Shown here in pieces: positions 1 to 5,572 of a DNA stretch of 5,596 nt (position 1 is the stretch's first letter; every line of letters starts with the position of its first letter). The translations under genes were made by a program, and so were the position numbers. The notes under the pieces were generated by a model, which saw only the letters and a list, made by a program, of their open reading frames with translations, was not told the DNA's origin and made no database searches. Source of the stretch: Verrucomicrobia bacterium 12-59-8 (GTDB lineage Bacteria > Verrucomicrobiota > Verrucomicrobiae > Verrucomicrobiales > Verrucomicrobiaceae); assembly GCA_002279765.1 (NCBI GenBank), contig NCCR01000284.1:1628-7223 (forward strand), in the 5' to 3' direction.

Positions 1-471
1 CATTGGTTCAACGATGACGTCTGTCTTGATCGAATTGGCGATGAAGCATTGTTCGTGCGCAAGATGATGCAGGTGAGCGACTTCTATGGCAGTGGGATGC
101 TTTTCACCGCCCCAGACGATGGTAGGATGCAGGGTGATCTGGCTGATCCAGGGCACGCCACGTTCGTTTTTCGTCATGATGCCTTCGGCTGCATCGTCAT
201 AGCTCTCGGGGAGAAAGCCGGCGTCGCAGGCGACGTGGAGGAACCAGAGCATGTGACAGCTTGAGACGGAGGCGATGAAGGTCTCCTCGGGATCGACGCC
301 TGCGGGGTTTGACCATGGGGCAGGGACAATCTGCGGGGAGGGGGAGCCGGGGATGGTGGCGCCGCCGTCGAAGTGGAGGGTGTGCTCGCGGGTGTAGCGG
401 CGGGCGAGGAAGTCGGGGCCTTGGTTTTTCCAGCGGACGGTGGCGGTGTGAGTATTGTTGCGACGCTGCAA
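1..471 (-). CDS. OsmC-like peroxiredoxin, 3' end outside window
   Basis: Reading the minus strand in the frame whose last in-window codon is 3-1 gives 157 residues of an OsmC/Ohr-fold protein. This family reduces organic hydroperoxides in the cytoplasm with a reactive cysteine pair. Visible hallmarks are HTATVRW near the N terminus, DPEETFIASVSSCHMLWFL with the peroxidatic-type Cys at about residue 72, and HHLAHEQCFIANSIKT with the second Cys at about 142. Both conserved cysteines are present. The family is about 150-160 residues, so only a few codons should be missing. I prefer the TTG at 471-469: AGGA lies 7 nt upstream and the family begins close to the HTATV segment. The frame stays open to ATGs at 537 and 588, with a stop at 591-589, and those longer starts cannot be excluded. 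It is transcribed divergently from the glycan cluster and is probably unrelated to it. Confidence 0.88.
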   Translation of the reverse strand, partial: MQRRNNTHTATVRWKNQGPDFLARRYTREHTLHFDGGATIPGSPSPQIVPAPWSNPAGVDPEETFIASVSSCHMLWFLHVACDAGFLPESYDDAAEGIMTKNERGVPWISQITLHPTIVWGGEKHPTAIEVAHLHHLAHEQCFIANSIKTDVIVEPM

Positions 472-782
472 AAGGCTTTTCCTGCTGTAAATGAGGATGT
501 CTTTGTCAACGACGGAAGAACAAGCGGAGACGGGCATGATGGAATGCGCCTCATGCTTTTGAGAACAAGAATGAAAGTGATGAATCATTTACGATGCAAC
601 TAATGGGAAGCAGTTGTCTCTCGCTGTGGGAAAGCAGCGGCTTTGGTTGGAAGGGGGGTTCGTGTCCATGCCAGCCCTTGTCAGATTCGATGAAAAATCA
701 TTCTGAGCCTCCTGCACAATGAGCGAGACAGGTCAAAAATTCACGTCTGGGAGATGATGCTGAATACGACGGCAAGTCATTT

Positions 783-883: not shown

Positions 884-966
884 GTGCATTTAATGATCGC
901 GATTTCACGTGCCTCTTGGCGTTCTCAGAGCGCAATTTTTAGTGATCGAGAAAAGTACACCTCGCT

Positions 967-980
967 TATTCTTAAGAATA
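967..980. repeat. 14-bp perfect palindrome upstream of glycosyltransferase
   Basis: TATTCTTAAGAATA is its own reverse complement and ends 17 nt before the preferred ATG at 998. It may be an operator-like site or chance in AT-rich DNA. If translation began at 884 or 893 it would lie inside the coding region. Confidence 0.4.
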
Positions 981-997
981 TAAAACACAACAGAACA

Positions 998-1870
998 ATG
1001 TGCTACTTTCGAGGCAAACGGATTCTGCTGTGGACGCGCAAGCCTGGCCTTGGGGACATGGTGATGAATGCCATCTGCTGCGACATACTCAGAAGGGAGC
1101 ATGGCTTGGACGTATGGTTTGGCTGTCGTTACAACCCCTATGACCGTGATTTTCCCGAGATATTGAAGGGAATACCCTGCTACAAGTACCAGCCGGACTT
1201 GCGAACTCATCCGCTTCCCAACCAAGCCGAGCCAAGAGGTTATGCAGGAGGCAAGGACTACGCCGGGCAGAAGCATCCCTTCGACTTCATTCTGGATTTC
1301 CGCTACCACATGCATCTTGAGGTCAACACCCTCTTTCAATGCCTGGAGGAATTCGGTGTGTCCCGCATGAAAGTGCCTTGCGATGGTCTGCCGGTTCACA
1401 ACCTGCCGGGCATCGGCAAGACCTACGATGTCGTTCTCAGTCCGGACTGTGGAGGATGGAAGCCGGTGAGGGCGTACCGACGAGGCGTTGACCTTGAGGT
1501 ATTGCTGAACAAGCGGGGGATCTCTGTACTGAACCTCTCCAGAAGCGCCAGCCATGCGAAGCTCAGGCTGCCGGAAGTACTGGCACACGTGAAGGCGGCC
1601 AAACTGTTCATCGGCGTGGAAACTGGTCCGACACATCTGGTCTCCGGGGTTCACCAGCAGGCGCTGGTGCTGCAGTCAGGTATTCATAGGTCCGCTTTCT
1701 GGAATATTTATGCGCGCACGCATGTGGTGGAGAAGGAATGGGCATGCGGGGGAAGGAAATGCCAGGTTCGGAAACACGATGAGTGTGTCATTCCAGAAGG
1801 CGTCTGCATGGACCGGTATGCTCCTGAGGACATTGCGGAACTGGCCTGTGAACTGATCTCAAACAAATGA
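998..1870 (+). CDS. GT9 family (heptosyltransferase-like) glycosyltransferase
   Basis: This 290-residue protein resembles glycosyltransferase family 9, the ADP-heptose:LPS heptosyltransferases. Those are cytosolic GT-B enzymes that transfer a sugar from a nucleotide donor to a glycan acceptor. The N-terminal Rossmann half starts with RILLWTRKPGLGDMVMNAI (residues 8-26), matching the GxGDxxxxxP/A-type GT9 opening. The C-terminal half has KLFIGVETGPTHLVSG (202-217), the GT9 donor-site loop usually written as D/E-S/T-G-P-x-H-L. A late cysteine cluster (C250, C255, C263, C270) ending in GVCMDRYAPEDI is also typical of GT9 tails. At 290 residues it is somewhat short for the roughly 320-360 usual. 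I chose the ATG at 998 because similarity begins a few residues later. GTG 884 and ATG 893 are in-frame alternatives adding 38 or 35 residues of unlike sequence. No clear Shine-Dalgarno site is seen. The stop overlaps the next start as ATGA, so the two genes are probably translationally coupled. The donor and acceptor sugars cannot be read from sequence. Confidence 0.8.
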   Translation: MCYFRGKRILLWTRKPGLGDMVMNAICCDILRREHGLDVWFGCRYNPYDRDFPEILKGIPCYKYQPDLRTHPLPNQAEPRGYAGGKDYAGQKHPFDFILDFRYHMHLEVNTLFQCLEEFGVSRMKVPCDGLPVHNLPGIGKTYDVVLSPDCGGWKPVRAYRRGVDLEVLLNKRGISVLNLSRSASHAKLRLPEVLAHVKAAKLFIGVETGPTHLVSGVHQQALVLQSGIHRSAFWNIYARTHVVEKEWACGGRKCQVRKHDECVIPEGVCMDRYAPEDIAELACELISNK

Positions 1871-2429
1871 GCTTTGAAACATCCAAATGCACGGCGCGCA
1901 GACTTGCGCAGGGCCACCTGCTGAAGCTGGCTGGCAATGGAATCGACATAGGTGCCGGCGACGATCCTTTCCGTCCCCTCTCCGGTGTCTGCCGTCCTTG
2001 GGACAAAAAAAGCGGAGGGGGGGATGCCTCTGAACTTAAGGGCTTGGAGGCGGGCTCCCTGGACTATGTCTATGCTTCTCATTGCCTTGAGCATCTGCCT
2101 GATCCGGTTGAAGCCCTGAACCGCTGGGCGGATGTGATACGCAGCGGAGGCTTCATGTATGTGGCTGTTCCCGACTTTGATCTTTATGAGGGGGGGGGGG
2201 CATCCGCAACAAGTTCCACAAGGCCGCTTTTTCACTGCACCGTCCGTCAGATCCGGCGAAACCGCTCTACAATGTGGCGTCGCTGCTTCTCGGAACCCTG
2301 TCCTCAAGACTGAGGCTCTGGTACATCGGGCTGTGTGATGACAACTACAATTACGACCTGCCCTCCAGTGTTGACCAGACCCAGCGAGGGGCTGTCTGCC
2401 ATATCGAATTTATGGCTCAAAAAATATAA
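1867..2429 (+). CDS. SAM-dependent methyltransferase, frame broken at poly-G tract
   Basis: This is a class I (Methyltransf_11-like) enzyme. Visible parts are motif I GIDIGAGDDPF (residues 25-35), an acidic residue after strand 2 (D46), SLDYVYASHCLEHLPDP (64-80) and IRSGGFMYVAVPDFDLYE (91-108). The annotated frame then meets 11 G residues and reads nonsense to a stop at 2313. Reading in the -1 frame from 2199 instead gives GIRNKFHKAAFSL and later DQTQRGAVCHIEFMAQKI, ending at TAA 2427-2429. That is the normal C-terminal continuation of this family and has no internal stop. The intact protein would be about 187 residues and would need 9 or 12 G residues in place of 11. The start overlaps the glycosyltransferase stop (ATGA) and the next gene starts 26 nt after the stop, so it sits inside the operon. 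It is likely to O-methylate a sugar or related glycan precursor, inferred from context only. As written, the product loses its C-terminal 40%. Confidence 0.82.
2190..2200 (+). repeat. 11-G homopolymer at methyltransferase frameshift
   Basis: Eleven consecutive G residues begin with the last base of a GAG codon and end before CATCCGC. The coding frames on either side are offset by one base exactly here. Tracts of this length slip during replication and are also error-prone in some sequencing methods. Confidence 0.95.
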
Positions 2430-2455: not shown

Positions 2456-4417
2456 ATGAATGCAGTTTACAACAGCCACATATTAAAATGGAAGAACGTC
2501 AACTGGCCCGAGGAAGAGCGAAGGCTGCTTGAGAGCATCCAGAGCTGCAAAGGAAAGGAGGTGCTTGCCAAGGTCCGGCAGGGTGACAGGCTGGTGGAAC
2601 TGCCTTCGCCCAACGGCAATTTCAGCCGGAGACTTCAACTGGAGAAGATCAATCTGAAGGCAGGGTTTGATCTTGAACTCATCACGCGTGAACCGTGCAT
2701 GGCGGGACATGGGCAGCCGGCGGTCGAGCCAGAAAGGCCTGAGGATTTTGTGGACCGCGCCGATTACAACGCGCTGCAATGGAATGGTGAGCGAGGCACT
2801 GGAACCCTGGTGTCCAACCGCATGCGCAACACTCCCATGTTCTTCCGGCACAACGGCATGAACGCCGACGTGATGGACTTGTATGCTGGGCAGACACTGT
2901 TTCTGGTGCTCAACGGCGGGAGCCTTGAGGGCTTTGACTGGTCCCGGCTTAAGAAGCCGGGAATCTGCACCTTTGGAGTGAACAACGGCGCCCACGTCCT
3001 GCGTCCGACATTTTGGACTTCCGTGGACGATCCCACCCGGTTTCTGCGTTCGATCTGGCAGGATCCGACCATCACGAAATTCATTCCCATGTCGCATTTC
3101 CAGAAGCCGGTCTGGGACGAGTCTAAAAATGCGATTTCCAAATCGCAGGTGAAGGATTTCCCCAATGTTTACGGCTATCGCAGAAACGAGGCGTTTCAGG
3201 CCGCGCAGTGGCTTTATGAAGACACCATCAACTGGGGGAACCACGGCAAGCGGGGAGGAGGGCGCTCGGTCATGCTTGCGGCGCTGCGCATCGCCTTTCT
3301 GCTGGGCTTCCGCAGGGTCTGTCTGCTGGGCTGCGACTTTTACATGGATGACAACAACCGGTACTGGTTTGCGGAGCAGAGGTCAAAGCAGGCCATCTCC
3401 AACAATCAGAACAGCTACCGCATCATGATGAGCTATTTTGACGAGCTGCAGCCACACTTCTTAAACGCGGGTTTCCATGTGGTGAACTGCAACCCCAAAA
3501 GCCATTTAAAGGCGTTCCCCATGGCGGATCTTGAAGAGGAACTGCGTGCCGCGCAGGTTGACACCGGCGCCACGACGGTCGGCATGTATGTGGACCGCTA
3601 CAAAGAAACGAAACCAGCCGCACCAAAGCCGAATCCACCGCCGCCAGCTGCCCCCAAAGGGGCTGCGGCTCCCAAAGGTGTGTCTCCCGCGTACAAGACA
3701 TCCCGCCCCGCCGCTGTCTCCCCGGGAAGCGGGCGAAGGATGGAGGCAAAAACGCTGGGACAGATGATCAGTGTGATAAGAGCGAGCCCCCTGCAGCATC
3801 AGCCTTTTGCACACATGCGGCTTGAGTCGATGATCCCTGAAGACATTTATCAGGAGCTTCTGGAGAATCTGCCGGACAGGCGCTGCTACATCGCGCCGCA
3901 CCGCACCCCCGGTGCCGAGAGGGGGGCGGACGGGAGGCTCAGGCTTGGGCTTTCCAGCAGTGAGATTTCCCGGCTTCAGGGCGGACAGCAAAAGTTTTGG
4001 TCTCAAATGCGCACCGTGCTGCATGATCCCCGGCTTGAGTCCGCTTTGCGCATGGCGATGCGAAGCGGACTGAGACAGCGTTTTGGCGGTCATGCCGACA
4101 GTTTGAAATTTCAACCCAGGGCCGAGCTCTTGCACGATCCCGAGGGTTATTGCGGGGGGATTCATTCAGGGACTTCCCAGCAGGCCTTGATCCTCGAACT
4201 CCACCTGCCTCAGGACTGCAGCCAGTCCGATTCCGCCGCCACCCGATACTTCAGGCGTTCTGAATCAGGGGCGTTTGTCGCTGAGAAGACCCTGGACTTC
4301 ACCCCGCGTTCTGGGCACGCGTTTGTCGCAGGAGACAGCAGCTACCATGGTCTTGAGTCTACCATGACCGAAGACCGGCATCGAAACGCCCTGCTGGTCA
4401 CATACGAGATCAAATGA
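2456..4417 (+). CDS. DUF115/GT42-like domain fused to 2OG-Fe(II) oxygenase-like domain
   Basis: This is a 653-residue, apparently cytosolic protein with no signal peptide or membrane segment. Residues 1-140 are unassigned. Residues 145-360 look like the DUF115 (Maf/MptE-like) or GT42-like Rossmann fold: TLFLVLNGGSLEGFDWSRL (147-165) resembles the nucleotide-sugar loop NGPSL, followed by TFGVNN and FWTSVDDP, then FRRVCLLGCDFYMDD (285-299). Residues about 386-425 form a Pro/Ala/Lys-rich flexible linker. Residues about 436-653 resemble small 2-oxoglutarate/Fe(II) oxygenases: LLHDPEGYCGGIHSG (558-572), LELHLPQD (580-587), the PRSGHAFV strand and SYHGLEST (629-636), then R643, the expected 2OG-binding arginine. 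The first motif is HSG where relatives usually have HxD, so the iron-binding Asp is Gly572; H570 and H631 remain. The domain may therefore be a halogenase-type or inactive variant. An in-frame TGA at 2450-2452 forces the start to 2456 or later. No Shine-Dalgarno site is visible. It is third in the cluster, and a role in transferring or decorating glycans is inferred. Confidence 0.75.
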   Translation: MNAVYNSHILKWKNVNWPEEERRLLESIQSCKGKEVLAKVRQGDRLVELPSPNGNFSRRLQLEKINLKAGFDLELITREPCMAGHGQPAVEPERPEDFVDRADYNALQWNGERGTGTLVSNRMRNTPMFFRHNGMNADVMDLYAGQTLFLVLNGGSLEGFDWSRLKKPGICTFGVNNGAHVLRPTFWTSVDDPTRFLRSIWQDPTITKFIPMSHFQKPVWDESKNAISKSQVKDFPNVYGYRRNEAFQAAQWLYEDTINWGNHGKRGGGRSVMLAALRIAFLLGFRRVCLLGCDFYMDDNNRYWFAEQRSKQAISNNQNSYRIMMSYFDELQPHFLNAGFHVVNCNPKSHLKAFPMADLEEELRAAQVDTGATTVGMYVDRYKETKPAAPKPNPPPPAAPKGAAAPKGVSPAYKTSRPAAVSPGSGRRMEAKTLGQMISVIRASPLQHQPFAHMRLESMIPEDIYQELLENLPDRRCYIAPHRTPGAERGADGRLRLGLSSSEISRLQGGQQKFWSQMRTVLHDPRLESALRMAMRSGLRQRFGGHADSLKFQPRAELLHDPEGYCGGIHSGTSQQALILELHLPQDCSQSDSAATRYFRRSESGAFVAEKTLDFTPRSGHAFVAGDSSYHGLESTMTEDRHRNALLVTYEIK

Positions 4418-4486: not shown

Positions 4487-5572
4487 ATGAGCTCCTCATC
4501 GTCAGAATTTCCTCCCCCCTCCTCGTCCTCTGAAGTTCCCTCCAGCTCGGAGCACTCTTCATCTTCAGCACCGAGTTCGTCATTTTCGGACTCCCACTCA
4601 TCTTCATCAGTTTCAGACTCTTCTTCGGGCTCGTCCTCTTCAAACTCCGAATCGTCGTCTTTATCGTCAAGCTCAGCCGGACCGGGGGATTCCAGCTCAT
4701 CGAGTGAAAGCGGCAATTCGTTTCAACCGCAGCAAAAGAGCACCCAGGCTCCGGTGGTTCCCGTGGATCAGAACGGGACAGGCCTGCCTTATTCCGAGAG
4801 CAAAGACCTCGACAGCCTGGGCAGAACGGTGATGCATGTCGATCAAATGGGGGTTGCCACCAAGTTCGCCTATGACAATGCCACGGGCGCGATGGTGCAG
4901 AAAATTGCGGATGCAGACACATCATCGGAGGGGGGGGCGGCCAGCCTCCTGACTGCTGGATCCTCCTCTTCTTCGTCTTCTTCCTCTCCTCCTTCTGAAG
5001 CGTCCAATCTCGTCACCGACTTTGAAACCGACGACAACGGCCGGGTGCTCCGTGAATACGGTCCGGTGCATGAAGTTCAACTGCGTGTGGACGAGCAGAC
5101 TGTGGAGGCGGCCATGGTGCGGACCATGAAGTACAACGTGTATCGCGACGACCTGCACCAGGTCTGGACCGCCTCAGGGTATGCCAGGGGCAACGGGCCC
5201 AACTACACGTTTGTGACCGTCGGTTCCGTGCACCTTTCCTTCATGAACGACTCAGGCCAGGTGACCGATGACATCGAGGCGGTCCGAGTGTGCGACATGG
5301 GCCCCCTGTCCGAGGCGGAAACTTTTCCACGTCCACGCTGGCGGCGCTGGACCCACAAGATCTACGACATGTGGGGCCATCTGCTCTCGCAACGCGTTTA
5401 TAGCAGGATCCCGGAAAGTGGAGAGGGTGAGAAAGACTACGACTACGCCGAGACCTGCTATGGCTACGACAGCATGGGCCGGCTGACCAGTGTCGGCTAT
5501 CCCGATGGCACCAGTGTCCAGTACGTCTATGAGGACACCGACTATCCGTTCCTGGAGACGGCGGAGGCCTGA
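4487..5572 (+). CDS. Serine-rich RHS/YD-repeat protein, probable fragment
   Basis: This 361-residue protein has degenerate YD repeats: LGRTVMHVDQMGVATKFAYD (111-130), DDNGRVLREYG (182-192), KIYDMWGHLLSQRVY (291-305) and CYGYDSMGRLTSVGYPDGTS (324-343). Such repeats build the beta-cocoon of RHS/Tc-toxin-type surface or secreted proteins. Residues 2-75 are mostly Ser with some Pro, Asp and Glu, and a second run of nine Ser lies at 159-167. RHS proteins usually exceed 1,000 residues and start with a signal or targeting region. This one starts directly in a Ser-rich linker and lacks both a signal peptide and the RHS core, which suggests a 5'-truncated or displaced piece. A stop at 4481-4483 rules out an earlier in-frame start. 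There is no Shine-Dalgarno site, and the 69 bp upstream are AT-rich with no obvious terminator. The stop at 5570-5572 comes soon after a typical repeat, and the sequence ends 24 nt later, so a frameshift before more RHS sequence cannot be judged. Confidence 0.7.
   Translation: MSSSSSEFPPPSSSSEVPSSSEHSSSSAPSSSFSDSHSSSSVSDSSSGSSSSNSESSSLSSSSAGPGDSSSSSESGNSFQPQQKSTQAPVVPVDQNGTGLPYSESKDLDSLGRTVMHVDQMGVATKFAYDNATGAMVQKIADADTSSEGGAASLLTAGSSSSSSSSSPPSEASNLVTDFETDDNGRVLREYGPVHEVQLRVDEQTVEAAMVRTMKYNVYRDDLHQVWTASGYARGNGPNYTFVTVGSVHLSFMNDSGQVTDDIEAVRVCDMGPLSEAETFPRPRWRRWTHKIYDMWGHLLSQRVYSRIPESGEGEKDYDYAETCYGYDSMGRLTSVGYPDGTSVQYVYEDTDYPFLETAEA
4490..4711 (+). repeat. Serine-rich low-complexity tract
   Basis: These codons encode residues 2-75 of the RHS fragment, over half of them serine. 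TCN and AGC/AGT codons are mixed, so the DNA is a degenerate pyrimidine-rich tract and not a pure microsatellite. This points to selection on the protein as well as repeat expansion. Read on the minus strand it yields a spurious Asp/Glu-rich frame. Confidence 0.85.
4930..4937 (+). repeat. 8-G homopolymer within RHS fragment
   Basis: Eight G residues encode part of the Ser-Glu-Gly-Gly-Ala stretch at residues 147-151. The frame is intact across it, since YD-type sequence continues on both sides. It is a second potential slippage site, shorter than the one in the methyltransferase gene. Confidence 0.85.
4961..4987 (+). repeat. Nine-serine run
   Basis: Nine consecutive Ser codons (mixed TCC, TCT and TCG) at residues 159-167 are followed by PPSEAS. 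This looks like an internal linker between YD-repeat segments of the RHS fragment. Confidence 0.9.

Follow-up and report, generated by a model that had tools for sequence, protein, structure and literature searches.

The C-terminal domain (C-domain) of a glycosyltransferase fusion protein encoded in the window, the whole 5,596-nucleotide stretch of DNA analysed, is most likely a pseudo-oxygenase, helping the glycosyltransferase through binding or positioning (probability of about 0.7), which is more likely than a new halogenase. Its ancestor would have been an HxD prolyl-hydroxylase/PolD-like 2OG-Fe(II) oxygenase domain, already fused to a sialyltransferase/Maf-like glycosyltransferase. In the window lineage it would have lost the acid that binds the metal, along with a conserved Lys and the Tyr presumed to contact 2OG. 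The domain would have changed quickly before constraint returned. Its Fe/2OG chemistry would be gone, and it may instead bind an acceptor or hold the glycosyltransferase against its target, for which the serine-rich RHS protein encoded alongside is a plausible candidate. Sequence comparison and structure prediction firmly support the fold, the ancestry, the in-place loss of pocket residues and the low dN/dS of one ortholog pair.

Table 1. Features of the window, with positions counted from its first nucleotide
Feature	Position	Strand	Remarks
GT9 (heptosyltransferase)-like gene	884..1870	+	PF01075 E 0.0052, below cut-off; kept in L001, L018, L021
Methyltransferase gene	1867..2313	+	PF08241 E 6.4e-8; frame broken at 11-G run relative to L001
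Fusion gene	2456..4417	+	653 aa, open frame
N-domain, probable sialyltransferase/Maf/MptE-like glycosyltransferase	2456..3595	+	residues 1-380
C-domain, degenerate 2OG-Fe(II) oxygenase fold	3743..4414	+	residues 430-653
Proximal metal motif His570-Ser571-Gly572, Gly replacing Asp	4163..4171	+	
Residues 576-583	4181..4204	+	window: Lys576 to Gln, Thr579 to Ile, Gln581 to Glu, Tyr583 to His
His631, distal metal ligand position	4346..4348	+	Ile in P0006
Arg643, 2OG C-5 carboxylate position	4382..4384	+	role of OGFOD1 Arg230
Serine-rich RHS/YD-repeat protein, start	4487..5572	+	PF05593 E 5.5e-6

The Fusion Protein and Its Domains

The protein consists of an N-terminal glycosyltransferase-like domain (N-domain), a Pro-rich linker and the C-terminal 2OG-oxygenase-fold domain. 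Translation of frame 2456-4417 (+) yields GYCGGIHSGTSQQALILELHLP where the sequence-only reading had placed it and bears out the positions given there for H570, S571, G572, H631 and R643. The proximal motif is encoded by CAT (His570, 4163-4165), TCA (Ser571, 4166-4168) and GGG (Gly572, 4169-4171). That reading had also argued that no single-base read error explains the Gly; such an error is indeed unlikely because HSG occurs in L001/P0003 and P0004, all from other assemblies, and the Gly codon of L001 is a different one, GGA.

As a 223-aa piece, the C-domain has no match in Pfam or NCBIfam, and its PHROGs matches are weak and confined to families without a known function (best E 0.015). The window C-domain as sole query retrieved no relative at E ≤ 0.01, and standalone relatives surfaced only when a seven-row alignment was used as the query. 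A 31-row profile finds PolD among PDB sequences at E 3.9e-4, with the metal motif, the KAIT..Tyr strand, the distal His and the Arg all in register, and the predicted structure is a confident model of a 2OG oxygenase fold, so that the likeness to the family pattern first noticed by eye is now confirmed. Both marks of the 2OG-Fe(II) oxygenase fold superfamily, a double-stranded beta-helix and a significant match to solved members, are found in this domain. In the profile alignment, Gly572 falls on the Asp of PolD, in agreement with the proposed replacement of HxD by HxG, and no other acid is seen at the third-ligand position, where the sequence-only reading had allowed for one. Among the best 50 fold matches listed no halogenase is named; unlisted families may include some.

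The N-domain is probably a sialyltransferase/Maf/MptE-like glycosyltransferase, judging from its sequence, with Maf as a presumed relative. Residues 1-395 match the alpha-2,3-sialyltransferase family phrog_4603 at E 1.4e-9, this family having no curated cut-off, and scores lie below the curated cut-offs for PF01973 (20.9 bits vs 34.6) and CST-I (E 0.12, 12.2 bits vs 25). The N-domain has no sequence match in the PDB, where the profile of the whole fusion obtained two matches in all, both above E 0.1, and its structural model is weak (pLDDT 60.6). The domain also exists without the oxygenase domain, in L004 (1865-2941) and L005 (9893-10930), where other glycosyltransferase-like genes follow it; neither genome has a C-domain match elsewhere.

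Relatives and Acid State

Full-length relatives of the fusion are P0003-P0006, L001-L003, L008, L011 and L012. The 31 alignment rows include 24 with H-x-D, one gapped at the position and six without the acid (window, L001, P0004, P0005, P0006 and P0020). Genome searches added L008 and L009 (HTD), L011 (HSD), L012 (HKD) and L010 (HTG), together with L013, which has HPD and is not a fusion. Residue counts refer to a set of 27 acid-bearing and seven acid-less rows, which leaves out P0028 (motif gapped), P0029 (fragment), L014, the repeats L006, L007 and L015-L017, and P0007, judged by eye to be the same domain as L008.

Orthologs with HxD, which the sequence-only reading had regarded as a sign of an isolated decayed copy, do exist among the fusion relatives (L002, L003, L008, L009, L011 and L012), but the copy is not isolated, as the loss is common to a whole clade. 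In the 34-row tree, the window, L001, P0004, P0005 and P0006 form that clade (100/100), and its successive sisters, L011 (96/85) and then L008 (97/96), both bear the acid. A second tree without L003, L012, L013, P0026 and P0030 has identical nesting (100/100, 97/85, 94/94). Both trees require three acid-state changes, forced by well-supported branches; in the simplest reading of the sequences, HxD would be ancestral and would have been lost separately in the window clade, L010 and P0020. The placement of P0020 and L011 is less sure because the 34-row tree has several long branches (P0020, L011, P0030, P0026, L013 and L003).

Two acid-less copies lie outside the window clade. L010 (1501-2163) is an independent HTG fusion copy with an HTD sister, L009, and has Asp in place of Tyr583 and Arg in place of Gly568. 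P0020, a metagenome protein of 251 aa, has HPG and Ser in place of Gly568, and keeps Lys576, Thr579, Gln581, Tyr583, both His and the Arg; its DNA was searched for in viral contigs, without a match in that collection. Its sequence suggests a nearly isolated acid-to-Gly change in a standalone branch and makes this single protein a better halogenase lead than the window.

The C-domain alignment found relatives in at least nine of 386 genomes of the order (E ≤ 1e-3, L014 among them as a weak 35-residue match), in five of 68 genomes of the family and in at least one of 387 genomes drawn from the phylum, namely G001 itself; the order and phylum counts are lower bounds because up to seven candidates were scored per genome. 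L014 is a long protein in which two stretches resemble, by eye, further distant oxygenase-like repeats. None of the viral contigs encodes a relative of the fusion.

Loss of Pocket Residues

H-x-D, Lys576, Tyr583, His631 and Arg643 are present in 27/27 acid-bearing rows. Three of these residues are missing in all five rows of the window clade: Asp572 is replaced by Gly or His (Gly in the window), Lys576 by Gln and Tyr583 by His or Asn. The canonical two-His-one-carboxylate triad is absent throughout the clade. Three further positions are each conserved in 26/27 acid-bearing rows: Gln581, nine residues past position 572, is Glu in 5/5 clade rows, while Thr579 is Ile and Arg560 is His in 4/5. Arg643 is retained in 34/34 rows, acid-less (7/7) and acid-bearing (27/27), and the window, L001 and P0004 also retain both His570 and His631. 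HxG is conserved in these three rows, all HSG, and not across the clade, since P0005 has RSG, with an Arg570 known from this one protein, and P0006 has HTH, its distal ligand position being occupied by Ile.

Tyr583 aligns with a Tyr of PolD and, we infer, answers to Tyr169 of OGFOD1, which, according to excerpts of PMC4396695, works with Arg230 to bind the C-5 carboxylate of 2OG. With Arg643 kept and Tyr583 gone in 5/5 clade rows, this Tyr-Arg pocket is incomplete. The inactive scaffold that the sequence-only reading had offered as one of two possibilities gains support from the loss of Lys576 and Tyr583 and from the drift of the His ligands.

The erosion is wider than the metal site. Of 58 columns that are conserved across 85% or more of the acid-bearing rows, 37 are intact in the window, 36 in L001, 36 in P0004 (of 57 lettered), 34 in P0005 and 40 in P0006, compared with 50 and 52 in the acid-less rows outside the clade, L010 and P0020. 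In a leave-one-out control, which is generous because acid-bearing rows include close relatives, these rows keep a fraction of 0.82-1.0 (0.83 in L011), with the exception of the distant P0030 (0.69).

Tempo and Selection

The two domains (N-domain, 255 columns; C-domain, 223 columns) were compared for branch length on a topology fixed from the trees. The stem leading to the four HSG/RSG rows shows 0.621 changes per site in the C-domain against 0.059 in the N-domain, a C/N ratio of 10.5; the ratio is 3.8 for the stem of the whole clade of five and 1.8-2.1 for end branches within the clade, P0005 excepted (5.4). Ten of the 11 acid-bearing branches, the inner ones assigned by inference, lie at 0.5-3.1 and L011 at 4.5. 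L010 (HTG) reaches 4.3 against 0.8 for its acid-bearing sister L009. Two inner N-domain branches are near zero, which makes their ratios meaningless. Between the window and L001, a single pair, dN/dS is 0.156 for the C-domain (bootstrap 95% 0.096-0.25), 0.108 for residues 1-380 (0.068-0.16) and 0.155 for the GT9-like gene (0.093-0.245). Branch ratios and this one pair together therefore indicate that the C-domain changed fast around the time its pocket was lost and that the present constraint on it is similar to that on the neighboring gene. Fast change alone is no proof because the acid-bearing L011 also has a high ratio.

Gene Neighborhood

The order GT9-like gene, methyltransferase gene, fusion gene recurs in four of 11 loci, two acid-less (window and L001) and two acid-bearing (L018 and L021). 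The methyltransferase frame is intact in L001 (187 aa). In the window, the 11-G run lies at 2190-2200, and the longest G runs in the L001, L018 and L021 copies have 4-5 nucleotides; the run is either an assembly error or a slippage switch. A counterpart of the L001 RHS/YD-repeat protein is found in nine of 11 loci, in varying places and on varying strands; the two loci without it, L019 and L022, are short contigs. The RHS protein of the window has 52 Ser among its first 120 residues and is 91% identical to that of L001 over 257 aa. Large proteins of this kind, with extended runs of serine, also lie by or near the fusion in L001 (12034-19617), L002 (12127-19368), L003 (3785-9754) and L021 (1974-9500). 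It is plausible that the cassette glycosylates a serine-rich surface protein. An OsmC-like protein (1-588, minus strand, PF02566 E 2.6e-9) is clipped by the start of the window.

Alternative Explanations

Acid-bearing relatives with the same fusion, among which the tree nests the acid-less clade, favor a pseudo-oxygenase, as does the gene order that acid-less and acid-bearing loci share, and the C-terminal domain of OGFOD1 provides an already known oxygenase-fold domain without a metal site (excerpts of PMC4396695). Retention of His570, His631 and Arg643 in the window, L001 and P0004 counts against it. The same three residues, along with purifying selection on the C-domain in the one pair measured, would suit a working hydroxylase whose iron is held by two His alone, water replacing the acid. 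By analogy, human AspH is an active hydroxylase that has two His and lacks the acid, and its single-His variants still work (excerpts of PMC8252765), so losing the acid, or even one His, does not prove inactivity. Such a hydroxylase nevertheless appears unlikely here, considering that Lys576 and Tyr583, invariant in acid-bearing rows, are absent from the whole clade and that P0005 and P0006 each lack one of the two His ligands. A functionless C-domain, decaying as a passenger of the glycosyltransferase domain, would agree with the lost pocket residues and with the N-domain occurring alone in L004 and L005. Neutral decay seems very unlikely given the upper bound of 0.25 on dN/dS, the full domain kept in five clade proteins of 648-653 aa and the confident fold of the model.

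The sequence-only reading leaned on H-x-G...H...R, present in the window, L001 and P0004, to suggest a radical halogenase, in which a halide replaces the lost carboxylate; the change from acid to Gly in L010 and P0020, separate lineages by the tree, could be read in the same way. That chemistry is highly improbable for the window: relatives with the same fusion have HxD, the His ligands are not conserved across the clade (Arg570 in P0005, Ile631 in P0006), and Lys576 and Tyr583 are lost. Moreover, the HxG motif alone says little because, according to excerpts of a plant halogenase study (PMC12346261), no activity could be detected when the hydroxylase FLS was given the D-to-G change by itself. 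A broader proposal, which we hold to be a long shot, is that in the HSG rows and in the HTG and HPG cases (L010 and P0020) selection has repeatedly converted members of one oxygenase family to iron chemistry that needs no acid. This chemistry would include halogenation, and its target would be a surface glycan or the serine-rich RHS protein; the changes of Gln581 to Glu and of Tyr583 to His or Asn throughout the clade would then be parts of a rebuilt pocket.

Significance and Comparison with Known Systems

HxG is used to flag radical halogenases. A clean-looking HxG can accompany a more general breakdown of the active-site pocket, and relatives, not the motif, should decide. Related gene cassettes offer a natural series (HTD/HSD, HTH, HSG and RSG) leading from an oxygenase domain to a glycosyltransferase component that is probably no longer catalytic. 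Should acid-free copies turn out to keep iron chemistry, they would be additions to the short list of carboxylate-free 2OG enzymes. A search of the open-access literature with a few terms found no case of an oxygenase-fold domain joined to a glycosyltransferase-like one and encoded next to a serine-rich RHS protein.

PolD of Streptomyces cacaoi (PDB 9blq) and PasI (9ei6, 9ei7) are 2OG-Fe(II) enzymes; the window clade differs in lacking the Asp, Lys and Tyr, and the window C-domain in being fused to a glycosyltransferase-like domain. The prolyl hydroxylases PHD2, Pseudomonas P4H and OGFOD1/Tpa1 differ from the clade in having an acid at the third-ligand position, and the clade has His or Asn at the residue taken to match Tyr169 of OGFOD1. 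Compared with CST-I, phrog_4603, Maf and MptE-like glycosyltransferases, the window protein carries the extra C-domain. Human AspH, a two-His 2OG hydroxylase in the excerpted account, likewise has a metal motif without Asp or Glu; the likeness is one of motif, and the window clade has lost further pocket residues. In the radical halogenases SyrB2, WelO5 and BesD, Gly or Ala replaces the metal-binding acid, as Gly does in the window. The same is described for DAH in excerpts of PMC12346261. The window differs from these halogenases in that its relatives reveal a pocket in decay and His ligands that vary.
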